Source of the DNA: a virus
Strand: one strand, 5' to 3'
Virus record (IMG/VR): IMGVR_UViG_3300009420_000089
Span: 1 to 24,041 of that record
Length of the DNA: 24,041 nt
Made by a program: the position numbers and the translations under genes. Positions within the stretch are counted from its first letter, which is position 1, and the number at the start of each line of letters is the position of its first letter. Shown piece after piece: positions 2 through 23,646 of the stretch. The notes beneath the pieces are model-generated. The model saw nothing but the letters and a program-made list of their open reading frames with translations, was not told where the DNA came from and did no database searches.

Positions 2-436
2 ATGGCCACAGATTTATATAAACAAATTAAAGTAACAACAGCTAAACAAGCACAGCCTGCTATCGGCCAAAAAGCCTATAGAGGATTTAGCACAGTCAAT
101 CCGGGAAACAATTCCTTCCAGCAATATGACATAGCAGTAATTAAACAAAATTTGCTTAATCATTTTAACATTAGGCAAGGTGAAAAATTATCTGATCCTA
201 ACTTTGGTTGTATTATTTGGGAGGCGTTATACGAGCCGTTGACAACCCAGCTTAAAGAAGCAATTACTGCAAACGTTACAAACATTATAAACTATGATCC
301 AAGAACGATTGCTGACAATGTACTAGTATCAGAGTATGAATCGGGTCTTCAGATCGAGTGTACAGTTACATATTTAACATATAATATTAGCGAATCCTTG
401 CAAATGCAGTTTGATAAAGATGCTGGATTAATATAG
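2..436 (+). CDS. 25: Baseplate wedge subunit gp25
   Basis: A 144-residue protein of the gp25 (GPW_gp25) family, the small wedge protein that clamps the gp6 dimer at the inner baseplate and contacts the sheath initiation region. The family signature is visible. D65-P-N-F-G-C70 matches the D-P-x-F-G-C segment of T4 gp25, and Y98-D-P-R101 corresponds to the conserved (E/D)-P-R motif, followed by a beta-rich C-terminus. T4 gp25 is 132 residues, so length is normal. The ATG is the second base of the window, so its ribosome binding site is outside and an upstream in-frame start cannot be excluded. The frame ends in TAG. Gene 6 follows after 64 bases, the usual partner gene in T4-like phages from marine hosts. 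Family assignment is firm; exact contacts are known only from T4. Confidence 0.93.
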   Translation: MATDLYKQIKVTTAKQAQPAIGQKAYRGFSTVNPGNNSFQQYDIAVIKQNLLNHFNIRQGEKLSDPNFGCIIWEALYEPLTTQLKEAITANVTNIINYDPRTIADNVLVSEYESGLQIECTVTYLTYNISESLQMQFDKDAGLI

Positions 437-500: not shown

Positions 501-3254
501 ATGTCATCAACCGACAGACAGAATAGACTGCTACTTGCAGAAGACTGGACAAAAGTCTACCAAAGTTTCCGAAATGCAGAGTTTCGTAGCTATGACTTTG
601 ACACATTAAGAAGATCAATGATCACATATCTAAGGAATAACTATCCTGAAGATTTTAACGATTATATTGACACATCAGAGTATCTTGCACTAATTGATAT
701 GATTGCCTTCCTTGGGCAAAATATTAGTTATAGAGTTGACTTGAATGCAAGAGAAAACTTCTTAGAACTTGCAGAGCGTAGAGAATCAGTTCTCCGCATG
801 GCACGTATGTTGTCTTATAATGCAAAGCGTAATCAAGCCGCTAACGGTCTTATTAAGTTTGAGACAGTAGCAACTACAGAAGAAATAATTGATAGTAACG
901 GCATTAACTTATCTGATCAAACTATTATTTGGAACGACCCTAGCAACATAAATTGGACAGAACAGTTTAGACGGGTGCTTAATGCGGCCCTGCCTAGAAA
1001 CAACACAGTTGGAAAACCAGCAAAGTCTCTACAAGTTGACGGAGTACTAACACAACAATATAGATTTAGATCTACTAATTCAGATGTTCCAGTCTTTGGT
1101 TTCGCAAAGGGCGTAAACGGACTTCAAACACAATTTGAAATAGTATCAACTGACGTTAATTCTAATACCTCCCAAATTAAGGAAGAAAATCCAGTACCTG
1201 GAAATAGTTTAGCATTTCTTTATAGAGAAGATGGCAGAGGAACTAGCAGTGCAAACACAGGATACTTTTTACACTTTAGACAGGGTACAATGCAGTCTGC
1301 TAATTTTAATGTTAGCAACCCAACATCAAATCAAGTAATTGCAATCGATGCACAAGACATTAATAATTCTGATGTATGGTTATATCAACTTGACGAAAAC
1401 GGTAACCCGGAAACTTTATGGACTCAAGTAGATGCAATCGAAGGTAATAATGCAATATACAACAGTGTAAATAAAAAAATTAGAAACTTTTATGTTGTGC
1501 AAACTAGAGCCAACGATCAGATTAGTTTAGTATTTGCTGATGGTACTTTTGGAAATATTCCAAATGGTAATTTTAGAGTATACTACAGACAAAGTGCTAA
1601 CAGATCTATGAAGGTTGTTCCTAGTGAATTAACTAGTATTACATTTAGCTTTCCATATTTGGCTACTAGTGGAAAAACAGAAACTTTAACAGTTGGCGTA
1701 GAATTAAAACAAGCAGTTACTAACGCTACTAATAGTGAATCATCTTCTAGCATTAAGCAAAATGCACCACAAACATACTATACACAAAATAGAATGGTAA
1801 CCGGTGAAGATTATAATATTGTTCCGTTAACAGCAAACCAAGAAATTATAAAAGTTAAATCGACAAATAGGGTTAGTAGCGGAATTAGTAGATATTTTGA
1901 TCTCAAAGATGCTACAGGAAAATATTCAAGTACAAACTTGTTTGGCTCTGACGGTGTACTTTATAGAGAAAAATATGAAAGTAAAGCGTCATTTACTTTT
2001 TCAACTCAAACGGATATTGAAGGAACTATTGAAAATACAATTCTTCCTACTATACAAAATAGAGCAATTAGCAATTATTACTTTGCAAACTATGCAAAGA
2101 TTATTGTTAGTGATCTTAGTGCCACTTGGCAACAATCAACTAAGACAACTAATAGTTCATCAGGCCTATTAAATAATATCAGTAGTGTTCCGTATCAAAT
2201 TGGAACATTTACTGGTGGCTCGTTAAAATATGTAGAAGCTGGCGCATTATTAAAGTTTGTTCCTCCTGTAGGATTTTACTTTGTTGATAATGGCAAGTTA
2301 ACTAGTAATGCCGGTGCCAAAGGCGCAAGTACATACAAGTGGGTTAAAGTTATTAGTACTGCCGGATCGGGTGTATCTGTTAATAGCACAACCGGTGAAG
2401 GGCCTATTGTCCTTAATGAAATACTTCCAGCTAACAGTGTACTTGAAGAAATTAAACCAAAACTAGTAAAAGATATTACCACTGATGTAAGATCACAAAT
2501 TATTGACCAAGTATTTGCTTATAAAACTTTTGGGTTACGCTACGACCAAGTTAATAGAATTTGGCGTGTTATCATTAACGAAAACTTAAATGTAAATGAT
2601 GTGTTTAGTAATGGTAAAACTGGTGACGTAACTAATAACCAATTAGACTCAAGTTGGTTGGTATTATTCCAAACTAACGGAGAGACTTACACTGTTACTA
2701 ACAGGGGATTGCGATATGTATTTGAAAGTGATAAAGAGCTATCATTTTACTTTGATGGGCAAAACAAAATCTATGACTCTTCAACAGGCCAACTAGTTAA
2801 AGATAAAATTGGTATTATGAATTTTAATACTAAGCCCGATGTATTGACAGCATTTAATAATGATGTTAATTGGGAAATTGTAAAAGAATTTAGAAACACA
2901 GACGGATACGTTAATAGTAAAAAAGTAGAAGTTAGTTTTTACGATTTAAATGATGACGGTAGTATTGACGACCCAGATGTATTTGACGTAGTAGTTGCTC
3001 CATTAACTAATACATCAACAAAATATATTTTCTTAAAGAAGGTAGAGTCAGATCAAGGATTTAGTAAGTATAATTTCTATAGCGACAGTAACTTAATTAA
3101 TGTTGTATCTACTGAAACTGAGATTGGTGCATATAGTCAATATACATCAGGACAAGTATTTTATATTATAGATAGCAATAATTTCAAAGTGTTAAATAAT
3201 AGTGTGCTAATAGTTACAGCAGACTATAAGCACACATTGGAAGAAGTAATTTAA
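501..3254 (+). CDS. 6: Baseplate wedge gp6, N-terminal part (frame interrupted)
   Basis: A 917-residue frame carrying most of gp6, the wedge protein that dimerises and links neighbouring wedges into the inner baseplate ring. The N-terminus is highly characteristic of marine T4-like gp6: Y-D-F-D-T-L-R-R-S-M, then N-Y-P-E-D-F-N-D-Y, then D-L-N-A-R-E-N-F-L-E with E-R-R-E-S-V-L within the first 100 residues. A baseplate-J-like beta-rich region follows. The frame stops at a TAA (3252-3254) in the middle of the protein. After Y909 the frame -1 to this one is open from 3230 and continues with the expected gp6 C-terminal sequence, so residues after about 910 are probably out of frame and the true product is about 1178 residues. 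T4 gp6 is 660 residues. The break could be a sequencing or assembly deletion, a real mutation, or less likely programmed frameshifting. Confidence 0.9.
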   Translation: MSSTDRQNRLLLAEDWTKVYQSFRNAEFRSYDFDTLRRSMITYLRNNYPEDFNDYIDTSEYLALIDMIAFLGQNISYRVDLNARENFLELAERRESVLRMARMLSYNAKRNQAANGLIKFETVATTEEIIDSNGINLSDQTIIWNDPSNINWTEQFRRVLNAALPRNNTVGKPAKSLQVDGVLTQQYRFRSTNSDVPVFGFAKGVNGLQTQFEIVSTDVNSNTSQIKEENPVPGNSLAFLYREDGRGTSSANTGYFLHFRQGTMQSANFNVSNPTSNQVIAIDAQDINNSDVWLYQLDENGNPETLWTQVDAIEGNNAIYNSVNKKIRNFYVVQTRANDQISLVFADGTFGNIPNGNFRVYYRQSANRSMKVVPSELTSITFSFPYLATSGKTETLTVGVELKQAVTNATNSESSSSIKQNAPQTYYTQNRMVTGEDYNIVPLTANQEIIKVKSTNRVSSGISRYFDLKDATGKYSSTNLFGSDGVLYREKYESKASFTFSTQTDIEGTIENTILPTIQNRAISNYYFANYAKIIVSDLSATWQQSTKTTNSSSGLLNNISSVPYQIGTFTGGSLKYVEAGALLKFVPPVGFYFVDNGKLTSNAGAKGASTYKWVKVISTAGSGVSVNSTTGEGPIVLNEILPANSVLEEIKPKLVKDITTDVRSQIIDQVFAYKTFGLRYDQVNRIWRVIINENLNVNDVFSNGKTGDVTNNQLDSSWLVLFQTNGETYTVTNRGLRYVFESDKELSFYFDGQNKIYDSSTGQLVKDKIGIMNFNTKPDVLTAFNNDVNWEIVKEFRNTDGYVNSKKVEVSFYDLNDDGSIDDPDVFDVVVAPLTNTSTKYIFLKKVESDQGFSKYNFYSDSNLINVVSTETEIGAYSQYTSGQVFYIIDSNNFKVLNNSVLIVTADYKHTLEEVI
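3221..3232 (+). other. Frame change (-1) inside gene 6
   Basis: Around GACTATAAGCAC the gp6 reading frame passes from the frame of 501 to the frame of 3329. The downstream frame has a TAA at 3227-3229 and is open from 3230. Adding one A to the AA at 3228-3229 gives Y-K-A-H-I-G-R-S-N-L-K-F-Q-Y-V-H-S, joining both halves without loss. No X-XXY-YYZ slippery heptamer stands in the upstream frame between 3221 and 3254, which argues against classical programmed frameshifting. Confidence 0.75.
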
Positions 3255-3328
3255 AGTTCCAGTACGTACACAGTGCCGATGAAGGAAATAGAATTGATCC
3301 TAGTGCAAGTAATATTATAGATGTATAT

Positions 3329-4036
3329 ATGTTGACTAAAACATATGATACTAATTTTAGAAAATATATTACAGGATCTATTACTAATCCCCCGTTGCCT
3401 CCTAGTACAGATGAATTATATCAAAACTATGGCAGAACAATTAACCAATATAAATCAATAAGTGATGAAGTAATTTATCACTCGGTTGAATATAAACCGT
3501 TATTTGGAACACACGCACAAGATAATTTGCAAGCAACATTTAAAATTGTAAAAAATAATGGTCAAGTAATTAATGATAATGAAATAAGAACACTTGTTAT
3601 TACTGCAATTAATCAATTTTTTGCATTAGAAAATTGGGACTTTGGAGATACATTCCATTTTACAGAACTTGCAACGTATGTAATGAACCAAGTAGCACCG
3701 GATGTAGTTAATATTCTTCTTGTACCAAAACAAGCAACACAGGGGTTTGGTAGCTTGTATGAAGTTAAAGCAGAAAATAACGAAATCTTTATTAATGATG
3801 CAACTGTTGCTGATGTTGAAATTATTGACTCTGTAACAGCTTCTAGAATACAAGCATCAGGTAATATAATTACAGCTACTAACACAACAAACACAGGTAT
3901 TAAGAGTCAAGCGTTGACAACAAGTACTACAACTACAACAACTACAGCAACTACAACAAGCTCAAGTAGTTCAAATAGTTCAGGATCAAGCGGCGGAAGC
4001 GGAAGCTCCGGCGGCGGCGGAGGTTATGGATACTAA
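3329..4036 (+). CDS. 6: Baseplate wedge gp6, C-terminal part (open from 3230)
   Basis: A 235-residue frame from an ATG that is probably only an internal methionine. The frame is open back to 3230, and those 33 codons encode K-F-Q-Y-V-H and R-I-D-P-S-A-S-N-I-I-D, the run into the gp6 C-terminal domain. No ribosome binding site precedes 3329. The conserved C-terminal domain follows: S-I-S-D-E-V-I-Y-H, L-Q-A-T-F-K-I-V-K-N, F-F-A-L-E-N-W-D-F-G-D-T-F-H-F, and I-L-L-V-P-K-Q with F-G-S-L-Y-E-V. In the wedge this end should lie near gp25 and the gp7 equivalent. The last 39 residues (197-235) are an unusual Thr-rich, then Ser-rich, then Gly-rich tail ending in Y-G-Y. The stop TAA overlaps the ATG of the giant gene by one base. 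An independent small protein is possible but unlikely. Confidence 0.85.
   Translation: MLTKTYDTNFRKYITGSITNPPLPPSTDELYQNYGRTINQYKSISDEVIYHSVEYKPLFGTHAQDNLQATFKIVKNNGQVINDNEIRTLVITAINQFFALENWDFGDTFHFTELATYVMNQVAPDVVNILLVPKQATQGFGSLYEVKAENNEIFINDATVADVEIIDSVTASRIQASGNIITATNTTNTGIKSQALTTSTTTTTTTATTTSSSSSNSSGSSGGSGSSGGGGGYGY
3917..4033 (+). repeat. Low-complexity Thr/Ser/Gly tail of gp6
   Basis: Near-triplet repetitive DNA of ACA/ACT, then AGT/AGC/TCA, then GGC/GGA codons. It encodes 39 residues made almost only of T, S and G, ending in two tyrosines. The local G+C rises sharply in the Gly-coding part (about 3990-4023) compared with its surroundings. It looks like a flexible linker rather than a folded domain. 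Confidence 0.85.
4019..4023 (+). promoter_or_regulatory. Ribosome binding site of the giant gene, within the gp6 tail
   Basis: GGAGG stands 12 bases before the ATG at 4036, inside the glycine codons that end gene 6. It is the best Shine-Dalgarno match in the window, slightly far from the start. With the TAATG overlap it suggests re-initiation or coupled translation. Confidence 0.55.
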
Positions 4037-7000
4037 TGGCACAAGATGAATCACCAATTCCGGTAAACGGAGAAAGCACAAACAGAAACACTGCTGACTT
4101 ATTACCTAGGTACTTTAGAACAGTGGCTAATAAAAAGTTTCTAAGTAGCACCCTTGATCAAATGATGCAACCAGGTGTTGTTGAAAAGGTTGACGGGTTT
4201 ATTGGTCGAAAAGATGCCAAAGCATTTAAAGCCGGTGACAATTACTTACAAGAAGTTAGTGATAACAGACAAAATTATCAATTAGAACCTGTTGCTACAA
4301 TTACTAATAATTTGGGCAATACTACGTTTTATAGAGATTATAGAGATTTTACAAACAGTGCTAAAATTAGAAACACAGATAATAGCAATCACAGTTTGTT
4401 TAACTCTCAGGAATATTATTCTTGGGATCCACATGTTAACTTTGATAAGTTTGTAAACTTTAGAGAATACTATTGGTTACCAGCAGGACCTAATGAAGTT
4501 CCTGTTTACGGCGCCGCCAGGAATATTACTAGTACATATAATGTTAAGCGTCAAGACAACGTTGATAATAACAGTTATATTTTTAGTGATGAAAATATTG
4601 TAAGCAATCCTACACTAACGTTGTATAGAGGACAGACTTATAAGTTTGACGTTAACACAGTAGATATGCCATTTAGCATTAGAACTACTAGAGATAACGA
4701 AGATACTACTAATTTGTATACTACTGGAATTAACAAAAATAATATTGAAAAAGGTGTTATTACTTGGACAGTTGATTTAGAGTCTCCTGAATACTTATAC
4801 TATGTTAATGGCAATGACATCGAAGCTTCAGGACTCATTGTTATTAAAGATATTAGAGACAATACTGAATTAGACGTTGCCTCAGCAATAATTGGCAAAA
4901 AAACTTATACTATGCAAAATGGTTATGCATTAACTAATGGCATGAAAGTAAAGTTTTACGGAAAAATTACTCCTGAACAGTACGGTAAAGGTTCTTGGTA
5001 TATTGAAGGCGTTGGCGATTCAATACAACTTATTTCAGAAGAAGATCTTGTTATTACCGCAGACTACTTAACTGATGTATCAACTGAGTTTGATAATCAA
5101 GGATTTGCGGCATTACCGTTCGACGATGCAACATCATATGCTACACTAAAAGATTATATTGTTATTAACAGAGCATCTAAGGATAGGAACCAATGGTCAA
5201 GATATAACAAGTGGACACATAGAAGTGTCATTGAAAATATTGCAACTATTAATAATGTGCCGGTTGTATTAGATCAAAATTATAGAGCTACACGGCCTAT
5301 TGTTGAATTTGACGCAGGACTAAAGCTATTCAACTTTGGTACTGAAGCAAAAACCGCAGTAGACTTAATTGATACTGTTACTAAAGATGTATTTTCAGAT
5401 ATTGAAGGCCAAACAGGATACTTTGTAGACGGAATTGAATTAGTTACTGGCATGCGTGTATTGTTTACTGCTGATCCAGATTCCTTTGTGTCAGGCAAGA
5501 TCTATCAAGTATCGTTTATTAGTCAGAATGGCAACACGCAAATTTCTCTTAAAGAAACTACTGACACTGCTCCATTGCAAGACGAAACAGTATTATCTAA
5601 GTCTGGAGTAAAATACAAAGGTAAGATTTTTTATTACACCGGAACAACTTGGCAACAAGCACAAGACAAGACAAAAGTTAACCAACAACCATTGTTTGAT
5701 TTGTATAACGATGAAGGAACACAGTTATCTGCATTAGAATCTAGTAGTTTTGTAGGTAATAAAATCTTTAGTTATAAAGTTGGCATGGGCGCCAATGATA
5801 CTGAGCTAGGATTTCCACTATCGTATAGAACTATCCAAAACAGCGGAGATATTGTTTTTGATTTTAATCTATTATCAGATACATATCGATATGATGAATT
5901 AGCAGAAGTTTATACAGTTAGTACTGATACTGCACTATTAAAGAAATATTCTAATAGAACTACATTTGTAAATCAATCAGCATGGACAACGGCCCCTGCT
6001 AAATCTCAGCAATTAGTTGTTACCCAACAAGTTGTAACTAATGAAAGAACTAATAACTTTATTGTTGATGTTTATAATAGAAGCGGCGACTTAAATGATT
6101 TAGTAGTTAAAGTTTACGTAGATAATGTTAGAAAAAGAGACGGTGTTGATTATACTATTAATAGAGTTAACGGTTATGCATATGTTACTTTTAATACTAA
6201 TTTAGTTTTAAATAATAGTTTAGTTATTAAAACAAGTTCAAGTGCGGCAAAAACTAGTAATGGATATTACGAGTTTCCGATAAACTTTGAAAAAAATCCG
6301 CAAAACGAAAATGTAACTACTTTTACGTTAGGCGAAGTATTAGATCACGTAGACAGTATTGTTGATAATGTTGACGGATTTGTAGGAACGTATCCGGGAG
6401 TGAGCAACTTACGGGACTTGGGCAAAGTAGCACCGTTTGGCTTAAAGTTTGTTCAGCATAGTGGACCAATTAACCTTGCATTATATAACTTGACAGACAA
6501 GGACTACGATGCAATTGAAGCTATGAAGTATTCCGGTATTGAATACATTAAATTTAAAAGAGAATTTTTAAGAGTAGCTAATGATCTTGGTGTTGATAGT
6601 ACTGATAAATTGCATGTAGATAGTGTGTTTGCCACACTTAATGAAACTAAAACAAATGATGATCCTTTTTACTTTAGTGATATGATACCACACGGTGGTG
6701 ATTCTAAGGTTTCGCATATTATTGAAGATCAGTCACAAACAATATTTTCATTAGCCCGCGGTGTTGACTTTACAAAATTATCACAATTAGCAGTACTTGC
6801 ATATCTAAACGAAACACAACTTGTGTTAAACAAAGATTACACAGTTAGTAGTAGTGGATTTTTAACATTAGTTAATGCACCAACAGCAGGAGACATTTTA
6901 GATGTATACGAATTCCCCTCAACTGATGGTTGTTGGGTTCCGCCTACTCCAACTAAACTAGGTCTTTATCCTAAGTTTACTCCAGAAATATATTTAGACG

Positions 7001-10000
7001 ACACGTACATTAGTGAATCGACTGATGTAGCTGGCCCTTACAAAATCTATGCTAGAGACGAAACAACAACATTGTCATACAAAGGTAAGGTTGGTTGGTT
7101 CTATCCATTATTTACTGATGAAGTATCGGCTCAACAAGAAGACCTTAGGAATAACGGAACAGGATTTGCGCACACCCATGTGTTTGCTGGGACTAACACA
7201 GTATTTTATATGCCTAGTAGTAATATGAATCATGCTACTAACGATTCGCAATCTTATATTGAATATCCAAATGCTCAGGCAGTGTTACAAGGACACGACG
7301 GATCAATATGGAAATGCTTTGGCGACTTCAGAGACAGATTATTATTAGACTTAGAAAAACGAATCTACAATAACTTAAAACTTCCATACAATGAAAGTAT
7401 TGTTGACATTGCAGATTTTGTTGAAAGTCAAAATAGAAAAACTGGCTTTACTAGAAAGAAGATTTCAAAAACAATGATTTCTGATTTTAACAGATGGTTA
7501 GAAACAGTTGGCACTCCTGATTATGTTACTAACACATATTATAAAGCTGGCAACGGATTTACATACTATTACGGTAGAGCAGGTAACTTTGCTAACGAAC
7601 CACTAAGCGGATTTTGGAGGTCTATATATAAAGATCTTTATAATACAGATAGACCACACAGTCATCCTTGGGAAGTATTAGGCCTAAAAGAAAAGCCAAC
7701 TTGGTTTGAATCAGTATACGGATCAGCACCGTATTCTAGTAATAACCTTATCCTTTGGGAAGACTTAGCAAATGGTATTGTTCGTGAACCTAATAAAAAA
7801 GTAACATACCGAAATAAATTTAAAAATGCACAAATATATAACTATATTCCTGTAGATGAAAGCGGAAATTTATTACCGCCTAGTCAAACAGGTTATGCAC
7901 AAGGCGGCATAGATAGCACATATGATTCTGAGTTTACGTTTGGTGACGAAGCACCGGTTGAATCAGCTTGGCGTAAAAGTTCACATTATCCGTTCTCGTT
8001 AATGACAGCTTGGGCATTGAATCAACCTGCACAATTTTTTGGTTTAGCATTTGACAGAAGTAGAATTGTTCGTAACGGTGCAGAGCAACTAGTATATGAA
8101 GACACTAGCAAGCGTATTGAATTAATTAACTTGCAATTCCCAAATGGCGTAACAGGTAGTACCAGAGTACTTACAGCAGGTATTGTAAACTATGTACAAG
8201 GATATCTTGCTTCTAATCAAACACTTAGATTTACAGAGTACAAAACAAACCTTACTAATATTGAAAATAAGTTAGCATCTAAAATTGGTGGATTTACACA
8301 AAAGTCTAAATTTAGATTAATACTTGATGCAAGAACTCCTACTAATGAAGGGAACGTTTTTGTTCCAGAAGAAAACTATCGTATACATTTAACAAAAAGT
8401 ATTCCATTAGATGTTTACTCGTACAGTGGAATGATTGTTGAAATTACACCATCAGGATACATTGTCAAAGGTTATGATAAAGATAGTCCAATTTTTAAGT
8501 ACTATCCGCCTAGAGCAAAAAGCAATGATCCAGTAATTACAATCGGTGGCATAAGTGAAAACTTCTTAATATATACTGCTGGCAAACGGTATGAAACTGG
8601 ACAAATTGTTGAATCTAGTGATAGCTATTTCCGTGTAAAAGTATCACACACCGCAGGCGATGCATTTGATGCGGGCAATTTCCAACAGCTTGCCGAACTA
8701 CCAATTGAAGGTGGAGCATCTGCTAGAATTTCAGATACATTTGTAGATACACTTAGCGAAGTACAATACCGAACTTTGTATCGTGACAGGCAAGATGTTG
8801 TAGATCTTATGATGGGGTATCAAAAATACCTTACTAGCGTAGGCTTTAAATTTGACAACTACAACCAAACTATTCAAGAAATTGAAAACTGGAGACTAAG
8901 TGCTAAAGAATTCTTATTCTGGACAACACAGAATTGGGAAACTGGTACAATTTTAACAGTTAGTCCAAGTGCAAATACAATAGCGTTTGGAAAACCTTAT
9001 ACAGTAGTAGACGACATTTATGATAATTTTTATGATTATAGTTTGTTAAAAGCAGACGGCAAGCGGTTGCTTTCTGACTTTGCAACTACTGAAAGAGATA
9101 ATACTAATGAATTTGGGCTTCGTGTAAAGAATACGCAAGATGGAGTTTACCATCTTAAAATTCCAGTAATACAAAATGAACACGTAGTTATTATTGATAA
9201 CAGCACAGTGTTTGGTGACGTAATATATAACAGAGCACAAGGTTATAGACAAGAAAGAATTAAAGTTAAAGGATACCGATCTGATGAATGGAACGGTTCT
9301 TATAACATTCCAGGATTTATATTTGATGATGCAGTAGTTACTGAATGGCTTGCTTGGAAAGATTATTCAATTGGCTCACTAGTAAAACATAAACAGTACT
9401 ACTATGTTGCATCAGTTAATATTGTAGGTTCAAAGACGTTTAATGACAGTGAGTTTTTAATATTACCTAAAAAGCCAGAACAAGGATTATTGCCAAACCT
9501 CGACTACAAGGCTAAGCAATTTGCAGACTTCTTTGATCTAGATAGTGATAATTTTGACATTGAACAACAGCGTTTAGCACAACACACAATTGGATATCAA
9601 AAACGTAAGTACCTTGAAAATATTATTACAGATGATGTAAGTCAGTTTAAATTTTATCAAGGAGCAATTCAAGATAAGGGTACTAAAAATGTTCTTACTA
9701 AATTGTTTGATAAACTTGGAAGCGCAAGTAAAGACAGCTTAGAGTTTTATGAAGAATGGGCAATCCGTGCAGGACGTTACGGTGCAACTGACGGTGACGA
9801 TCAATTTGATGTATTACTTAACGAAGCAAAGTATAGACAAGAACCTCAATTAGTTGAATTAGTTGACGTAGTTAATCCACAAGACACAAGTTTAATTTAT
9901 AGATTAGACCGTAACAACATTTACGTTAAATCTAAAGATTATGCGCATACTCCGTTCCCAACTAAGTTCTTTAATGATGATAATAGTTACACACAAACAG

Positions 10001-19000: not shown

Positions 19001-19059
19001 ATGCAGAAAGTTTAGTAGCACGGTTCTTTAAGGCAGAAAAGGTAGAGCTTCCCAAATAA
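4036..19059 (+). CDS. Giant baseplate/tail structural protein, 5007 residues
   Basis: One unbroken 15-kb frame. Its position directly after gene 6 and before a collar-domain fibre gene is where T4 has genes 7 to 11. I infer an outer baseplate wedge and fibre-docking role; overall it resembles giant virion proteins of marine T4-like phages. Layout by residue: 1-190 conserved start with F-R-E-Y-Y-W-L-P; 191-272 cupredoxin-like; about 630-940 beta domains; 1205-1400 a conserved region starting D-R-P-H-S-H-P-W; chitin-binding-like modules near 1507-1550, 1770-1812, 2273-2305 and 2868-2912; FG-GAP propeller 2180-3190 with insertions; 3266-3560 conserved alpha/beta-looking region; G-x-G-Y repeats 3576-3640 and 3936-4000; fibre-type GDGST domains from about 4190 to the end. 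I see no signal peptide or membrane segment, and cysteine is rare. Start: ATG in the TAATG overlap with GGAGG upstream. Structural role is likely; the precise T4 equivalent is uncertain. Confidence 0.85.
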   Translation: MAQDESPIPVNGESTNRNTADLLPRYFRTVANKKFLSSTLDQMMQPGVVEKVDGFIGRKDAKAFKAGDNYLQEVSDNRQNYQLEPVATITNNLGNTTFYRDYRDFTNSAKIRNTDNSNHSLFNSQEYYSWDPHVNFDKFVNFREYYWLPAGPNEVPVYGAARNITSTYNVKRQDNVDNNSYIFSDENIVSNPTLTLYRGQTYKFDVNTVDMPFSIRTTRDNEDTTNLYTTGINKNNIEKGVITWTVDLESPEYLYYVNGNDIEASGLIVIKDIRDNTELDVASAIIGKKTYTMQNGYALTNGMKVKFYGKITPEQYGKGSWYIEGVGDSIQLISEEDLVITADYLTDVSTEFDNQGFAALPFDDATSYATLKDYIVINRASKDRNQWSRYNKWTHRSVIENIATINNVPVVLDQNYRATRPIVEFDAGLKLFNFGTEAKTAVDLIDTVTKDVFSDIEGQTGYFVDGIELVTGMRVLFTADPDSFVSGKIYQVSFISQNGNTQISLKETTDTAPLQDETVLSKSGVKYKGKIFYYTGTTWQQAQDKTKVNQQPLFDLYNDEGTQLSALESSSFVGNKIFSYKVGMGANDTELGFPLSYRTIQNSGDIVFDFNLLSDTYRYDELAEVYTVSTDTALLKKYSNRTTFVNQSAWTTAPAKSQQLVVTQQVVTNERTNNFIVDVYNRSGDLNDLVVKVYVDNVRKRDGVDYTINRVNGYAYVTFNTNLVLNNSLVIKTSSSAAKTSNGYYEFPINFEKNPQNENVTTFTLGEVLDHVDSIVDNVDGFVGTYPGVSNLRDLGKVAPFGLKFVQHSGPINLALYNLTDKDYDAIEAMKYSGIEYIKFKREFLRVANDLGVDSTDKLHVDSVFATLNETKTNDDPFYFSDMIPHGGDSKVSHIIEDQSQTIFSLARGVDFTKLSQLAVLAYLNETQLVLNKDYTVSSSGFLTLVNAPTAGDILDVYEFPSTDGCWVPPTPTKLGLYPKFTPEIYLDDTYISESTDVAGPYKIYARDETTTLSYKGKVGWFYPLFTDEVSAQQEDLRNNGTGFAHTHVFAGTNTVFYMPSSNMNHATNDSQSYIEYPNAQAVLQGHDGSIWKCFGDFRDRLLLDLEKRIYNNLKLPYNESIVDIADFVESQNRKTGFTRKKISKTMISDFNRWLETVGTPDYVTNTYYKAGNGFTYYYGRAGNFANEPLSGFWRSIYKDLYNTDRPHSHPWEVLGLKEKPTWFESVYGSAPYSSNNLILWEDLANGIVREPNKKVTYRNKFKNAQIYNYIPVDESGNLLPPSQTGYAQGGIDSTYDSEFTFGDEAPVESAWRKSSHYPFSLMTAWALNQPAQFFGLAFDRSRIVRNGAEQLVYEDTSKRIELINLQFPNGVTGSTRVLTAGIVNYVQGYLASNQTLRFTEYKTNLTNIENKLASKIGGFTQKSKFRLILDARTPTNEGNVFVPEENYRIHLTKSIPLDVYSYSGMIVEITPSGYIVKGYDKDSPIFKYYPPRAKSNDPVITIGGISENFLIYTAGKRYETGQIVESSDSYFRVKVSHTAGDAFDAGNFQQLAELPIEGGASARISDTFVDTLSEVQYRTLYRDRQDVVDLMMGYQKYLTSVGFKFDNYNQTIQEIENWRLSAKEFLFWTTQNWETGTILTVSPSANTIAFGKPYTVVDDIYDNFYDYSLLKADGKRLLSDFATTERDNTNEFGLRVKNTQDGVYHLKIPVIQNEHVVIIDNSTVFGDVIYNRAQGYRQERIKVKGYRSDEWNGSYNIPGFIFDDAVVTEWLAWKDYSIGSLVKHKQYYYVASVNIVGSKTFNDSEFLILPKKPEQGLLPNLDYKAKQFADFFDLDSDNFDIEQQRLAQHTIGYQKRKYLENIITDDVSQFKFYQGAIQDKGTKNVLTKLFDKLGSASKDSLEFYEEWAIRAGRYGATDGDDQFDVLLNEAKYRQEPQLVELVDVVNPQDTSLIYRLDRNNIYVKSKDYAHTPFPTKFFNDDNSYTQTAGYVNPSDVALSLLNYDDILTQDPVSVGTYIWTAKDKSGLSWSVYKSEKTDYKITEVTESQEDVFTITVNGVANFEAGEIISISSVDADTDGFYKVISASLNVVRLASTTDVVASSSTSGYVIKFVPARLPTLATANESIKADRNTQFSLTGNTSATSNLWVDDDDTGKWTVLQNKQVYELKSDIINTSLGLNFDSSEKDFGSAVSVTKNNNRIAITSPKDLNGSVYIFQRPSDNTDFGFLQQIDEQTLLFDSNGGFGQSVALSPDGKYLAIGSPHASNTKSKLKGDYANTLSYVTGDIVLYSSQLWKADRNIDADALQVFSNTASGQQSIVNDYVAFSQSYPTVEFMVRGDYALGTTEATDHILIRAEKEQFEGTKAGDILTLKWNNYITSAQAGTAPFNSDTTLTQAFIEGQHTIVSKVQNIAYIQSALSIPDVGSEITTATCRATIAYRKFNDENQMTVYVNNVNGVFEATGSIYSNGILVGAYETVLPITDDYYTGWWQVDVGSSFTTSNLTDTNPNLVVSNITLQNNAVNNPYFSNILDTKQLQSSATPTAASYIGILSHTQGQSNVQVVDSKWFVRTPLAHGNSLNVNDKVSMWLNEIRVNGLVQDPSAIGLTFTGTNKEQTIVDIWNGWTEVRLTNFDLNGDPFIPTVGAIVTDSASGNTATIAYVERAFSTVRLFLKDKSGPWALGSDFSANSNVSFIENDSTVRIIGPVSNTHLENTISGPLIIFDTGVNIPIVASGTNYLRDLEYWLYSDTVIQGINATAPPPSSINLDWERVYNLPLATNGYETNLTEQGTFAVYELKGSDYKLINYYTVPNSADFRKLGTKLKFVQPTNSSYKLFIHAEGNGTEGNQGRIYFVNKNATENWALSVQANYRGDFSQASPYYENEYVRVGDTVYKATTNLIPGMFNVSQWTAQTSGVDLLGYVPNDTNFSLVESTLEQANLEAFGTDFDVSLDGSVMISNSMYTSVYEIESGDAVLGLDSSIANRKVVVYRLNNASFEYSQILEPFNITEDFGSTIAVSNDGTKIAVGAPLNSDLVDGGGCVYLYVQSGNTYVYSQTLRPVDTSNNTQFGSKLDFDGSTLAVTSRGGDNITATTFDANTTSLDNGSTEFTIVDAGSGVISIYEIINNTLLYSQDFAYNLDTQDFGNRLTVNNNHIYVGLPKQQVSNSSILDKGLVAEYRKPIASTSWKTLRSPVIPADTSKFKGVHLYNKTTNQLVTYLDYIDPIQGKIAGPAEQEISFKTSYDPASYNTALTASGLTARELDYTSDKWVGKLWWDIDSAKFINHHQGDITESSANFNKLFPNTQIDVYEWIESTLLPSEWDGQADTEAGIAKNISGTTKYSDNAYSTRRRYDSATQIFTTYYYYWVRAKATLPEIENRVVTCADVIRYITDPASMNYKFVAILGNNKFAIHNCESFIENTSTAISFNWWTIENQQQPTHIQYQLVSDGHVTSVPNIGIEEKWFDSLVGLDKNDRPVPDINLSVKEKYGALNEPRQSWFINKTEARKQFIERANNVLSKNLVVDDFDLSKLTQFDPQPTIVTGKFDTTADSYAEIGFVSIAKVKPAVLTLEVENGSVVNVQIVDGGQGYITSPTYKIINKEGTGAELEFTLDVNGTISAVNIINAGANYTSTLSITVRRFSVLVKNDESVGGKWSVYQWNGNEYIRTLTQSYDVNLYWNYKDWYATTYNQFTFINHTVDSSYQIYGLDDAIGDVVKINSVGTGGWLLLKKVDDQDTADYSVNYNTVGRENGTIEFKNSLYDVTSASIAYDGASFDKLFYDTEPNTEFRKILSILKNNIFVDNLAIHWNELFFASLRYVFSEQPNVDWAFKTSFVTAKHNVGELAQKITFQNDSLPSYQNYVEEMKPYKTKIREYLSSYEKTDPANNTITDFDLTPYYDEQAGKIIPQSVQIIDGKVVSGLSDIANYPSKHWLDNAGFQLTSISIADSGSGYTDPPKIVISGGGGSGATAQAYIGNQKVTSVTVTNLGSGYLTAPTIEVIGSLIDGGTVARLSPILGEGKARSAHIRCKFDRVSGTYLFQTLLETQTFTSVLDQQNFNLKWPMQLKSTQITVTVDGLESLRSEYKFSNIKDVTKGYTRSAGRIAFTTPLKLGQVVVITYNKAPELLQAQDRINLYYNPITGMYGNDLSQLIGGVDYGGVEVSSFDFGTGSGWDSDEWFTTTYDTFDTTFEDEIFQLGDDSTRVLNFGAPLETGIVYNVYKNGVRLDDPNFGLASQTNTNAVITSITGASQTGVALFDDGVELASDIIVFDEDIINTGSGDILVFRKATSDGAFLPDPRSYDTVLSGGDMQFSTAKGFNPEEIIIDGDGFVTPTTSGGPEEQVPGQVQDSVDIKVFHRPKEGGSILSSNSYRTNGIETIFGFGIIPQNKHGLFVRIGDAIQAQSSYTVNYKNKTISFNSVVSANQDVNIMSISGNGKNVLDQGEFIGDGCTLAYVTKVHYTKTLDYYVTVDGETVETIMTSSGDSTEKDPKAMFIFGKAPADNSVINFAVYSSVDSFSKIETTEFTGDGSTAAFTLAKIPYSAKPNSHNVIVKQGNKILNPGYNQQFDVTTSAREYFLEMWQIPIGSFDNSDILVLLNGKELVIAVEYNLRPANSSIILEPGIGKDGDILEVYVRSDGEYAFGSIQVIDNQNTWVDSGAQLQLITAPGIGEKITVYTFNDHASMDFERQNFDVVSRSTLSVGSEDHIQFNHIKAGLVKLRYPAIDAQYVWLTINGVLKTPSVDYRLTDDKLFLKYNGSFADADVVEVLQFSAQGELQPKFGFSQFKDILNRNIYKRLGDIAPIKLAQPLSTFDKEIYLDDASNIGTPDKNSKIPGILFINGERIEYLVKQGNVLRQIQRGTLGTGAPTVHEVGSDVYNQGQMQTAPYMDETIINEQIGDNSTTVFELAFTPNSVNEFEVFVAGKRLRKTAISVFNPLLDQDSPEADETVPAEFSVDGTTPFLTLLNTPANNAKIQIVRRQGKRWTEPGISLNDAESLVARFFKAEKVELPK
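4606..4851 (+). other. Cupredoxin-like domain, copper ligands absent (residues 191-272)
   Basis: N-P-T-L-T-L-Y-R-G-Q-T-Y-K-F-D-V-N, then M-P-F-S-I, then G-V-I-T-W-T-V and L-Y-Y-V-N-G-N-D, ending in G-L-I-V-I. This order matches cupredoxin-like beta-sandwich domains of phage and marine bacterial proteins. The usual ligand positions H-P-F and Y-Y-C-x-x-H read M-P-F and Y-Y-V-N-G-N-D, so a metal site is unlikely. Fold assignment is by pattern only. Confidence 0.5.
10570..13590 (+). other. Seven-bladed FG-GAP beta-propeller with insertions
   Basis: Seven blade cores occur with F(or L)-G at residues 2189, 2245, 2818, 2942, 3010, 3067 and 3142. The best match the FG-GAP pattern F-G-x-x-x-x-(V/L)-x-x-(D)-G-x-x-(I/L)-A-(V/I)-G-(A/S)-P followed by a G-x-V-Y-x-Y strand, for example F-G-S-T-I-A-V-S-N-D-G-T-K-I-A-V-G-A-P. 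Blade 2 breaks after about residue 2270 and resumes at G2789-T-F-A-V-Y. A smaller insertion (about 2860-2915) follows blade 3. Integrin-type propellers have seven blades, so the count is what a closed ring needs. Confidence 0.65.
14761..16020 (+). repeat. Two pairs of G-x-G-Y protein repeats
   Basis: Residues 3576-3640 and 3936-4000 of the giant protein each hold two units of the form V-x-(I/V)-x-x-x-G-x-G-Y-x-x-x-P-x-x-x-I. The aligned tyrosines are Y3587 and Y3627 (40 apart) and Y3949 and Y3988 (39 apart); the second reads A-N-Y. The third unit is followed by a glycine-rich turn. The two pairs are separated by about 300 residues of other sequence. Confidence 0.7.
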
Positions 19060-19080: not shown

Positions 19081-19692
19081 ATGATGGATAACATAAAAGA
19101 AGAAAACGGAGTTATGCTCCAAGGACACATTAAGATTTCTAACCCAGAAACGGGCGAAGTTATTGTGGATAAACGTAATGCAATCCATTACGAGAATATG
19201 AGTATATCACTTGCTGAAAGTTTAGCTAATGCTGGACAGGGTACTATCTACCAAATGGCATTTGGTAATGGTGGTACAAGCATTGACCCAACAGGGATCA
19301 TAACGTACCTTACTCCAAACAGCACAGGGACAAACGCTAGTCTTTATAATCAAACATTTATTAAAGTAGTTGATGACAGAAGCGTTAATAATACAGACCC
19401 TGCAAGAAATAAGATTGAAACAAGGCATGTAAGCGGAACAAATTACACAGATATTGTAGTAAGTTGTTTACTTGATTACGGTGAGCCTAGTGGACAAGAT
19501 GCTATTGATAACGCAACCAATGCTGATAGCTTGTATGTGTTTGATGAGTTGGGGCTAGTTAGTTACCTTTCATCAGGACAAGGCAGATTGTTAACACATG
19601 TAATTTTCCACCCAGTACAAAAGAGTTTGAATAGACTTATTCAAATTGACTATACTGTGCGTGTACAAAGTTTATCGGGGTTTAACGAATAA
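19081..19692 (+). CDS. Conserved virion structural protein, about 200 residues
   Basis: 203 residues from the first ATG. The sequence starts ATGATG, and AAAGG (19074-19078) lies only two bases before the first ATG but five before the second, so 19084 (202 residues) is the better start. I recognise the pattern from marine T4-like phages: an N-terminal G-H-I-K-I-x-x-P-E-T-G-E-V with N-A-I-H, then F-G-N-G-G at 61-65, F-D-E-L-G-L at 154-159, and a C-terminal L-L-T-H-V-I-F-H-P with N-R-L-I-Q-I-D-Y-T. The family is annotated only as virion structural or hypothetical, to my knowledge. Between a baseplate giant and fibre genes, it could be a small adaptor joining fibres to the baseplate; that is inference. 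No similarity to T4 gp8, gp9 or gp11 is evident by eye. Its stop overlaps the next ATG (TAATG), pointing to coupled translation. Confidence 0.7.
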   Translation: MMDNIKEENGVMLQGHIKISNPETGEVIVDKRNAIHYENMSISLAESLANAGQGTIYQMAFGNGGTSIDPTGIITYLTPNSTGTNASLYNQTFIKVVDDRSVNNTDPARNKIETRHVSGTNYTDIVVSCLLDYGEPSGQDAIDNATNADSLYVFDELGLVSYLSSGQGRLLTHVIFHPVQKSLNRLIQIDYTVRVQSLSGFNE

Positions 19693-21773
19693 TGGCATAT
19701 ACAATTAACTACTCAGACAGTAACAAAGGTATTATTTCAATTGAAGATAGTACAATTAATCAGCAAACCAGTCTAGATATTCCTGGACGTAACACTACTA
19801 GTTATGGGTCAGTTATTGCCGAGAACTTCTTAAAACAATTAGAAAACTTTGCTAATACTACGGCGCCTAGAAATCCAATTCAAGGACAACTATGGTATGA
19901 TAGTTCAACTGGTGTTGATACACTTAAACTGTACGATGGCACAGTTTGGAGTAATGCTAGTGGACTTAAAAAGGGAAGTACTGCACCTGACGTAGCAAAT
20001 GCACTAACAGGCGATCTTTGGTCAGATACAGACAACAATCAGTTATATATTTTTACAGGTAGTGGTTGGACATTAGTTGGACCAGAATATAGTGATGGTC
20101 TTTTAACTGGGGCAAAGCCAGTTATTATAACAGGTAAAGATGAAGTACTTTATACTATATTACAACTTGAAGTTTCGGGTTCTCCGTTAGCAATTTATTC
20201 TACAAGAACCTTCCAGCCAAAAAGTACAATCGCAGGATTTACAATAATTCAACCAGGACTGAACCTTTCAACAGCTAACATCAGCGGCGACGGAGTTAGT
20301 AAGTATCTTGGCACTAGTGAAAAAGCAGAAAACTTAATTGTATCCGGAGCAAGTGTTGCGGCAAGTAATTTCTTACGTGGAGACGTTGCAAGTACATCAA
20401 CACAGAAATTAACAATTAGTAACAACTCGGGAATACAAGTTGGGCAAGATGCTATTGTTACTTTAGACGTTCAAGGAACTTCGGGAGTTGTTACTAACTT
20501 AACATCGGGTGCTCCAATTGACTTTAAAGTTAACAACTTAGGTGTACAAAAAAATGTTATTAGAATTGACTCGACTGAAAAAGTTGGCATTAACACACTA
20601 AGCCCAGCTGAAGCATTAGACGTAGCAGGATCAATTCAAACAAGTGCAAACTTAATTGTACAGGGTACAACAGATAGTTCTAGTATTGGTACAGGTGCTG
20701 TTAAAATTAGCGGCGGTGTAGGCATTGCTAAAAAGCTATTTGTCGGAACAGATTTTAGTGTTGCAGGGTCAACCACCAGTGGAGCAATTACTCCTATATC
20801 AACACAGAGTTATGCACTAGGTAGCACAACAAAACGTTGGTCAACTGTACATGCAGTTGAATTTAGAGGTAACTTAATTGGTAACATTACTGGTACAGTT
20901 ACAGGTGGCGCGGCAAATGCTAACAAACTTACAAGCGCAAGTACATTTGAGCTTTCAGGTGATGTAAGTTCTAATCAAATTACTTTTGACGGCCAAATAG
21001 GCGGCACAACAAAAACATTTACAACATCAATTAGTAATACATTTATTGCTAACAAAACATTAGCTACAGTACCAAACACAGACGATGAAATTATTATTAA
21101 CAGAATTTCAGGTGATGATACTGGAGTATTTAAGATATCACAAGCCGCACTAGTAAGCAGTGTACCTACAATACCAGTTGGTTCGTTAATGCCATTTGGC
21201 GGCATTAACACCCCGGATGGATGGTTAGTGTGCGATGGATCAGAAGTTAGAATTTCTGACTATTTAACGTTATATAACAGTATACAATACCAATTTAAAG
21301 ACCAAAGTCAAGTATCATCGGGATTCTTTGGACTTCCGGACTTTAGAGGTAGATTTGCACTTGGTGCTGATAACTTAGGTGGCGCTAGTGCAAACAGAGT
21401 TTCAGATGCTAACGCTGATACAGTAGGTCTTGGATCTGGTGTTGAAAGTAGAGTAATTGATGTTAAAAACTTACCAGAACACGAGCATGATTTAAGATCA
21501 CCAAAAGGTGCTCAGTTTTATGTAATGCTTGACGATAGTGGTACACAGCAAGATGCTGACACATTACCGTATGATGCACCCACTGGTTCGCAAGCTGGAC
21601 AAGCTCGTACATCATCAGGTGGTGTGTTAAACAGACGAAACATTACTTATAATTCAGTTACGGGACTTGAAGAATACGAAACATTTGATGTTACGGAACT
21701 TGGAACACCATATAACGTGATGAACCCATTCTTAACAGTAAGTTACATTATCTATACAGGAGTTGGGGGCTAA
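19692..21773 (+). CDS. Short-tail-fibre-like protein with tail collar domain (gp12-like)
   Basis: 693 residues. Residues 1-135 form a domain shared with the next two genes, with two W-x-D hairpin motifs (G65-Q-L-W-Y-D70 and G107-D-L-W-S-D112). The middle is repetitive beta-rich fibre shaft, including V-G-I-N-T-x-x-P-x-x-x-L-D-V, G-A-V-K-I-S-G-G-V-G-I and G-N-I-T-G-T-V-T-G-G. A phage tail collar domain begins at V496 (G-S-L-M-P-F-G-G, G-W-L-V-C-D-G-S, F-G-L-P-D-F-R-G-R-F). After it comes L-P-E-H597-E-H599; in T4 gp12 an H-x-H pair from each chain of the trimer binds a central zinc. The C-terminus (N-P-F-L-T-V-S-Y-I-I-Y-T-G) is typical of this family. I infer a trimeric receptor-binding short fibre. 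Position after the baseplate genes agrees with T4 gene 12, but the N-terminal domain differs, so a symbol is withheld. Confidence 0.82.
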   Translation: MAYTINYSDSNKGIISIEDSTINQQTSLDIPGRNTTSYGSVIAENFLKQLENFANTTAPRNPIQGQLWYDSSTGVDTLKLYDGTVWSNASGLKKGSTAPDVANALTGDLWSDTDNNQLYIFTGSGWTLVGPEYSDGLLTGAKPVIITGKDEVLYTILQLEVSGSPLAIYSTRTFQPKSTIAGFTIIQPGLNLSTANISGDGVSKYLGTSEKAENLIVSGASVAASNFLRGDVASTSTQKLTISNNSGIQVGQDAIVTLDVQGTSGVVTNLTSGAPIDFKVNNLGVQKNVIRIDSTEKVGINTLSPAEALDVAGSIQTSANLIVQGTTDSSSIGTGAVKISGGVGIAKKLFVGTDFSVAGSTTSGAITPISTQSYALGSTTKRWSTVHAVEFRGNLIGNITGTVTGGAANANKLTSASTFELSGDVSSNQITFDGQIGGTTKTFTTSISNTFIANKTLATVPNTDDEIIINRISGDDTGVFKISQAALVSSVPTIPVGSLMPFGGINTPDGWLVCDGSEVRISDYLTLYNSIQYQFKDQSQVSSGFFGLPDFRGRFALGADNLGGASANRVSDANADTVGLGSGVESRVIDVKNLPEHEHDLRSPKGAQFYVMLDDSGTQQDADTLPYDAPTGSQAGQARTSSGGVLNRRNITYNSVTGLEEYETFDVTELGTPYNVMNPFLTVSYIIYTGVGG

Positions 21774-21776
21774 AAC

Positions 21777-23615
21777 ATGGCATATCAGATTAATAAAACA
21801 AGCGGTGCATTACTAGTTAATCTCGCAGACGGACAGGTTGATGTAGCAAGTACTGACATTACATTAATTGGTAAAAACTATACAGGATTCGGCGAAGCAA
21901 TAAATGAAAACTTTGTTTCAATGCTTGAAAACTTTGCAAATACATCAGCACCAACTACTCCATTAGCAGGACAAATTTGGTGGGATACTTCTTCATCAAG
22001 ACTTAAAGTTTATACAGGAGCAAACTGGACAACAGGCGGCGGCCCCTTAGTAGGATCAACTCAACCACCTATGGTTGCAGGCGACCTTTGGATTAACAAT
22101 GAACAGAACCAACTATACTTCTTTGACGGTACAGACTTGGGATTAGCAGGTCCTATCTACAATGCGTTCCAAGGCCAATCTGGTCCAGAAGTTATTACTG
22201 TTCTCGATAATACAGGAACAAGTAGAACTATTGTCAAGTATTGGGTCGGCGGAACATTTGTTGGATTATGGAGCAAAATTGAATTTACTCCCCAAAGTAT
22301 TGATACTATTCCAGGATACACAGGAACGGTTGTAAAAGGATTTAACGTTGTAGATGCAGACTTTGTCTTTGCTGGTACAGCAACAAGAACAACTGCGCTA
22401 GTTGATAGTAACAATGTATCAAGAACTGCGGCACAGTTCCTTGCTAGTGATTCAGACGATGCAACATCTGGTGCATTAACAGTTAGAAATAATAATGGCG
22501 TTACAGTAGGTCTTACAGACAACAATGTACTTAAAGTTGAAGCGTCGGGTGTAATAAGTGAAAACCAAGTATCAGGCGAAAACTACACTTTTAGAATGAC
22601 TACTAGTACTGGTAAAGTAGATGCAATGACTATTGATTCAGCAAATAGTCGAATTGGTGTTTTTAATACAGCACCTGCATATACCTTCGACGTTAACGGA
22701 AGTCTACGAGTTAGTGGCGATTTAATTATTGGTGGTGAACAATTAGTAGTTGACGTAGGCAAATTGTTAGTAAGAGATAAAAGTATTGAGCTTGCTAAAG
22801 GTGACGATAGTACATTGCTAGATGATGCAGGAGTTGACGAAGCAGGTATTATAGTAGCTTCGTCGGGTGGCAATAAATCTTGGTTATGGAGAAACAGCAC
22901 AAGTGCATGGACTTCAAATCAAAGTATTAATATTGAAACCGGTTCATTAAAGTTTGGCGGAGTAGATATTATTACTGGCTCAAATGCTAGTGGTATTACA
23001 CAGTTAGGTGCGCTTACATCAGCTTCTATTGGTAATATTTCGTTTACTGGTGGAATTGGAATGTCAACAGGAGCAGTAGACGGTGATGGCAATGGATTAA
23101 ACATTACTGCGGCCGGCAATATTAACCTTGTAACTGCAAGACAGATTAAAAACGTAACAGATCCAACAGCAAATCAAGACGTTGCAACTAAAGCATATGT
23201 TGATGCTAGTATTAATATAGAAGCACTTTCTATTGCATTAGATGTTACTGGAATAGGATCTGCTGGGACTACACAACAACATACAAATATTGGAACTATT
23301 CTTGAAGATATTGCTCCAGCAGTAACAAAACAGAATGGATCAGAAGCTAGAGTGCATTGTACAACAACTACAGGCGCTACAGCTACACTAACGGGATCTG
23401 CATTGGACACGGCGTTTAACGAAAGTACTGTACTTGTACAGCAAAAGGACAACGGCGGCGCAGATGACGGATCAGTAAGTGTTATACAAAGTGCTACATT
23501 TAACAATGCAACTGGTAACATTACATCGACTGTAACAAGGTCGTTAAAACTATTTAGAGTAGTAACAGGATCATGGGCATATGTACAAGACATATCTCAG
23601 GGCACTCTGATATAA
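21777..23615 (+). CDS. Tail-fibre-type structural protein, paralogue without collar domain
   Basis: 612 residues, starting three bases after the previous stop with GGGGG (21765-21769) as ribosome binding site. Residues 1-130 repeat the N-terminal domain of the preceding gene: G-K-N-Y-T-G-F-G-E-A-I-N-E-N-F, L-E-N-F-A-N-T-S-A-P, G65-Q-I-W-W-D70 and a second G102-D-L-W. The middle also parallels it, for example R-I-G-V-F-N-T-A-P-x-x-x-F-D-V-N-G-S-L-R-V-S-G-D-L. The C-terminal part is different: it has D-P-T-A-N-Q-D-V-A-T-K-A-Y-V-D-A, a motif common in phage fibre and tail proteins, then a beta-rich end of about 130 residues that I do not recognise. No collar domain or H-x-H pair is present. Likely a second fibre or whisker-like protein using the same docking domain; receptor unknown. 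The final TAA overlaps a late-promoter motif. Confidence 0.75.
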   Translation: MAYQINKTSGALLVNLADGQVDVASTDITLIGKNYTGFGEAINENFVSMLENFANTSAPTTPLAGQIWWDTSSSRLKVYTGANWTTGGGPLVGSTQPPMVAGDLWINNEQNQLYFFDGTDLGLAGPIYNAFQGQSGPEVITVLDNTGTSRTIVKYWVGGTFVGLWSKIEFTPQSIDTIPGYTGTVVKGFNVVDADFVFAGTATRTTALVDSNNVSRTAAQFLASDSDDATSGALTVRNNNGVTVGLTDNNVLKVEASGVISENQVSGENYTFRMTTSTGKVDAMTIDSANSRIGVFNTAPAYTFDVNGSLRVSGDLIIGGEQLVVDVGKLLVRDKSIELAKGDDSTLLDDAGVDEAGIIVASSGGNKSWLWRNSTSAWTSNQSINIETGSLKFGGVDIITGSNASGITQLGALTSASIGNISFTGGIGMSTGAVDGDGNGLNITAAGNINLVTARQIKNVTDPTANQDVATKAYVDASINIEALSIALDVTGIGSAGTTQQHTNIGTILEDIAPAVTKQNGSEARVHCTTTTGATATLTGSALDTAFNESTVLVQQKDNGGADDGSVSVIQSATFNNATGNITSTVTRSLKLFRVVTGSWAYVQDISQGTLI

Positions 23616-23620
23616 ATACA
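23611..23620 (+). promoter_or_regulatory. Putative late promoter, exact TATAAATA
   Basis: TATAAATACA is a perfect T4 late-promoter core and overlaps the TAA stop (23613-23615) of the preceding gene. The shared octamer ATAAATAC is 23612-23619. The next ATG is at 23647, preceded by AGGGG at 23633-23637. Confidence 0.7.
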
Positions 23621-23646
23621 TATAACACAATTAGGGGTTTAAAAGA

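Follow-up and report, generated by a model that had tools for sequence, protein, structure and literature searches.

The closest described systems

In T4, K571, phiN3, DLP6, Mendera, S-PM2 and Syn19 the slot that follows gene 6 holds gp7, a protein whose size among T4-like phages runs from 503 aa in Mendera to 6483 aa in Syn19. The giant versions of the cyanophages (Syn19_088, PHROG 701; S-PM2p084, about 3048 aa) lie directly after gp25 and gp6 and carry a beta repeat of ~60 aa. A gp7-core profile built without Syn19 recovers the 6483-aa Syn19 protein (E 2.3e-20 and 2.6e-8), from which we conclude that giant gp7 is real in cyanophages. In Syn19 itself, where this protein is called hypothetical (L200:10655-30106), the gp7 core is clear and divided in two by inserts; its presence runs counter to a published view in which cyanomyophages lack gp7.

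A second group of very large proteins, PHROG 10938, includes PA5oct gp355, CBB gp236, RaK2 ORF070 and Atu_ph07 gp180, its named members measuring 3313-4449 aa. The family is widespread and its proteins rank with the larger ones made by phages; even so, its one label is 'virion structural protein', and the literature searched contains no account of its role. Virions of CBB contain CBB_236 (21 unique peptides, 7.72% coverage by mass spectrometry; PMC5259590) and the record annotation of PA5oct gp355 gives detection by ESI-MS/MS; the particle localization that an earlier note on this DNA wished to see checked is thus reported for these two relatives, not for the phage analysed here.

A giant gene behind gp25 and gp6

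The window, by which we mean the whole stretch analysed here (24,041 nucleotides), is the entire IMG/VR record IMGVR_UViG_3300009420_000089, so that whatever lies elsewhere in the same genome is examinable in relatives alone; compared with phage records by megablast, it gave no match. It opens with a gp25-like wedge gene (2-436, plus strand, as are all features up to 21773; Pfam GPW_gp25), followed by a gp6-like wedge gene that matches PHROG 10646. The first part of the latter (501-3254) breaks frame near 3227 relative to L004, a metagenomic relative with about 98% DNA identity to the window, and its C-terminal part (3329-4036; PHROG 10646 positions 966-1139) lies in another frame. In L004 gp6 is one frame of 1165 aa, and the window is one base short near 3227, in a short A run within 3227-3254 when compared with a 99%-identical relative; the split is probably a sequencing or assembly error. 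The gp6 C-terminal part ends in a low-complexity tail rich in S, T and G (3880-4036), which differs even from a relative of 99% identity.

The giant gene itself spans 4036-19059, and its ATG overlaps the stop codon of the preceding gene. The single intact frame of 5007 codons described earlier holds up: the L004 protein is equally long, and among the other complete relatives from metagenomes the lengths are 4982, 4986, 5002, 5003, 5022, 5256 and 5308 aa, which excludes an assembly accident. Searched as three overlapping pieces, the protein matches PHROG 10938 at E 6e-149 (the N-terminal part), 2.5e-84 and 8.4e-88, its middle being matched as well. The 5007-residue protein is real and belongs to a known family of giant tail proteins from very large phages, of which little has been described. 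By tblastn the family extends to about 60 phage records, nearly all of them jumbo phages (PA5oct, Atu_ph07, SCTP-2, RaK2, PBECO4 and CBB included), and each of four IMG/VR scans returned at least 576 to 594 confirmed relatives.

The giant stands directly after gp25 and gp6 in the window, Atu_ph07, PA5oct, PBECO4, RaK2, Vibrio 2.275.O, XacN1, CBB and metagenomic relatives; among the named relatives examined the sole exception is SCTP-2, where about 90 kb separate the giant from the gp6 match. On its other side comes the gene of a conserved 203-aa protein of unknown function (19081-19692; PHROG 11259), which is the giant's neighbour in most of the relatives that were examined, and then a series of fibre genes, including one with a tail-collar-type, gp12-like C-terminal part (19692-21773). 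The flanks are thus those named from the sequence at first reading, gp6 on one side and, one gene on, a gp12-like fibre on the other. The 203-aa protein occupies the place of T4 gp11, and no similarity between the two was detected.

Conserved cores and variable modules

Two conserved regions stand out in the giant, core A (about residues 1-1960) and core B (3200-3880); the insert that separates them (2000-3190) is variable, and conservation is poor in the C-terminal part. All 293 metagenomic loci that contain the second half of core A together with core B have both in one frame, some of these loci being the same contig fetched twice. Near the start of core A stands a conserved segment (LLPRYF..., aa 20-165; 4093-4530), followed by a module named cupredoxin-like by eye (aa 183-275; 4582-4860), which recurs at the C-terminal end of cyanophage gp9 (E 5e-10 by hhalign) and is absent from the giants of PBECO4 and Vibrio 2.275.O. 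Further on are two copies of a fibre-adaptor-like (XD) module, at aa 657-736 (6004-6243), recognized as a profile copy, and at aa 887-962 (6694-6921), recognized by model and profile; modelled residues 888-961 resemble residues 187-250 of CBA120 TSP4 (Z 9.7, rmsd 1.6, 64 residues) and share the fold of the CBA120 TSP4 XD2, T4 gp10-like and T7 gp17 N-terminal adaptor domains, a small module that is widespread in fibre and adaptor proteins and uninformative on the remainder of the chain. Two chitin-binding-like modules follow, one of the CBM5/12 type at aa 1508-1556 (8557-8703) and another at aa 1766-1815 (9331-9480).

The variable insert (10033-13605) matches FG-GAP twice, at aa 2244-2268 and at aa 3009-3043, and measures 131-1476 aa across the 293 loci. 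Core B (13633-15675) is modelled confidently by AF2 (pLDDT 86) and carries the ~60-aa beta repeat (aa 3574-3634; 14755-14937) that is also found in cyanophage gp8, in giant gp7 and in depolymerases; a second copy was found by profile at aa 3937-3995 (15844-16020). The remaining C-terminal part (aa 3996-5007; 16021-19056) is poorly conserved in the named jumbo phages.

PA5oct gp355, CBB gp236, RaK2 ORF070 and Atu_ph07 gp180 resemble the window's protein in following gp6 and in holding both cores in one chain; in contrast, giants of the window's marine lineage measure about 5000 aa, have their cores separated by a large insert and contain CBM-like modules, which RaK2 and PBECO4 lack. The adaptor-like, chitin-binding-like, FG-GAP and cupredoxin-like modules are mostly not retained across the family. 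Fibre-adaptor-like and carbohydrate-binding-like modules are present in the window's protein, in keeping with the mix of domains from which the earlier note had proposed both a scaffold and a surface-binding role; the two roles themselves we infer.

A probable counterpart of gp7

We propose that the giant is probably the counterpart of T4 gp7 in one jumbo myophage lineage, enlarged about fivefold. From our own computations this draws on gene position, conservation as one chain, modular layout and the lack of any other detectable gp7, and from the work of others on virion presence in relatives. A candidate gp7 core, FYQGAIQDKGTKNVLTKLF, lies at aa 1827-1898 (9514-9729). In hhalign against a deep profile made from 99 gp7 cores, this segment scores 31.7 (E 1.6e-4, 51% probability), whereas 20.8 is the most that any other, non-overlapping window of the giant (N-terminal part, cores A and B) attains with the same profile, and 34 control windows from other structural genes stay at or below 16.5 against the gp7 core. 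A second, family-wide profile scores 28.5, compared with at most 19.7 for 100 shuffled decoys and 15.7 for the reversed sequence. The signal is local, extending over 43-72 columns with hhalign probabilities of 32-51%, and the FY-to-KGT spacing differs from that of gp7, in which an LP..YY helix is followed by a DFYxxKGT helix; the AF2 model is weak around this segment (pLDDT about 60-70), too uncertain to decide the fold. Taken together, there is moderate evidence, from profile comparison, that aa 1827-1898 are a diverged gp7 core; it is reasonable to hold that the giant works in the place of gp7, and its formal assignment to the gp7 family is, on sequence grounds, not yet warranted.

T4 gp7 (1032 aa) thus shares with the giant the position after gp6 and a weak similarity at the FYxxKGT core, whereas it is five times shorter and the Pfam and PHROG models of gp7 miss the giant. 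Searches of the relatives' genomes with PHROG 964, Pfam Gp7_helical and a gp7-core alignment do not find the giant, PHROG 964 and Gp7_helical giving clear matches in T4, and the Pfam and PHROG gp7 models give no match with the giant itself. Gp7_helical also misses the gp7 of S-PM2, Syn19 and phiN3, and therefore does not define the wider gp7 family. With the gp7-core profile built without Syn19, no separate gp7 was found in the close relatives G001 (261 kb) and G002 (146 kb) or in seven named jumbo genomes. Compared with the cyanophage giants, the window has the same order directly after gp25 and gp6 and the same ~60-aa repeat; the cyanophage proteins differ in that their gp7 core is clear (E 2e-20) and gp8 is encoded separately, and similarity between them and the window's giant does not extend across the family.

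How could such a chain be built into the baseplate? Around residue 1860, a short gp7 core that has diverged strongly would pair with gp6 in each wedge, and cores A (1-1960) and B (3200-3880) around it could form a large wedge scaffold. The inserted modules (fibre-adaptor-like, chitin-binding-like, FG-GAP and cupredoxin-like) would decorate the outside, where they may serve to dock fibres or make contact with the cell surface; several are present in some phages and absent from others. The binding to gp6, the location in the wedge, the copy number, the fibre docking and the surface contact of the giant are all part of this proposal rather than of the data. Read as probable gp7 counterparts, the PHROG 10938 proteins acquire a testable role, and it is explained that gp7 is not found in these genomes. 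It would also mean that the conserved cores of a wedge gene can be kept apart by as few as 131 or as many as 1476 inserted residues.

How many wedge proteins in one chain?

The earlier note had gone further, in that one chain may replace several separate T4 proteins, gp7 to gp11. The gp7 part of this claim is supported by the gp7 slot and the weak, control-tested core signal; the gp9 part fails. Close relatives G001 and G002 encode separate proteins of the cyanophage-type gp9 family (PHROG 677, 494-498 aa), and RaK2 is reported to have gp10-like domains in separate tail-fibre proteins (PMC10253068), so the giant is not a stand-in for the whole of gp7-gp11. The gp9-family protein of G001 (L032:166-1650) ends in the cupredoxin-like domain that recurs at aa 183-275 of the giant.

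A narrower version, in which the giant replaces gp7, gp8 and gp10, perhaps gp11, without gp9, we regard as rather unlikely, and the same holds for its corollary, that one chain does the work of gp7, of gp8 and of gp10's docking part in a wedge of far fewer polypeptides than that of T4. It is favoured by what jumbo genomes seem to lack: profiles of gp8, gp10-D3 and gp11 match nothing in the 261-kb relative or in the seven named jumbo genomes and match T4 clearly, and a separate gp8 is retained in phiN3, DLP6, Mendera and Syn19, T4-like phages whose gp7 is either small or giant. In the relatives searched, neither gp7-core nor gp8 nor gp10-D3 gave a match, so the separate homologues of gp7, gp8 or gp10 to which the earlier note had pointed as contrary evidence did not appear with these profiles. 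That the gp8, gp10-D3 and gp11 profiles match nothing in these jumbo genomes raises the question of the minimal parts for a T4-type baseplate. The conservation of core B, of unknown fold, and the two gp10-type adaptor modules within core A point the same way. The chain itself, however, gives little sign of these proteins. The profiles of gp8, gp9, gp10 and gp11 match nothing there beyond the promiscuous ~60-aa repeat, through which alone the cyanophage-type gp8 profile scores; the likeness to gp10 is confined to the XD-like fold at aa 888-961, with no gp10 profile match, and when shallow profiles of cores A and B and of the N-terminal part were compared with gp7-gp11 by hhalign, nothing significant emerged. 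The equivalents of gp8 and gp10 may instead have diverged past profile detection, as gp7 nearly has. The comparison of modelled segments with T4 proteins, suggested at the outset and carried out for part of core A and for core B, found no T4 wedge chain among the fold matches. The idea that core B has the fold of gp8 or gp11 was likewise dropped, as no T4 wedge chain was listed and VIA was best with Z 4.6, on an Ig-like stretch, which is not proof of absence.

That the giant is instead an unrelated scaffold of the wedge periphery or surface, placed beside gp6 and without homology to gp7, whose true representative would be lost or unrecognizable, we consider improbable. Ordinary HMMs would agree with it, as they give no gp7 match. 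Core B would fit as well: its model has no match in the PDB (Foldseek best E 0.63) and in BFVD finds, at high coverage, mainly giants of its own family such as that of Atu_ph07. A phmmer search of PDB sequences with the giant gave nothing useful. A precedent exists in the published view that VrlC replaces gp7 in pelagimyophages and cyanomyophages (PMC7029224), yet the cyanophage giant in the same slot carries a gp7 core, which speaks against that view. The giant was also compared with VrlC and showed no match. Against an unrelated scaffold stand the gp7 position, kept in every relative examined but SCTP-2, and the control-tested core signal.

Very improbable, finally, is a protein mainly for host recognition, a giant fibre or spike instead of a wedge component: chitin-binding-like, FG-GAP and adaptor-like modules are there, but those of binding type fall within variable stretches, and RaK2 and PBECO4 lack several of them while cores A and B are kept, and separate fibre genes lie downstream. 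Three consecutive genes of that fibre series (19692-24041) have in common an N-terminal module of ~125 residues, which looks like a tandem duplication of an attachment domain.
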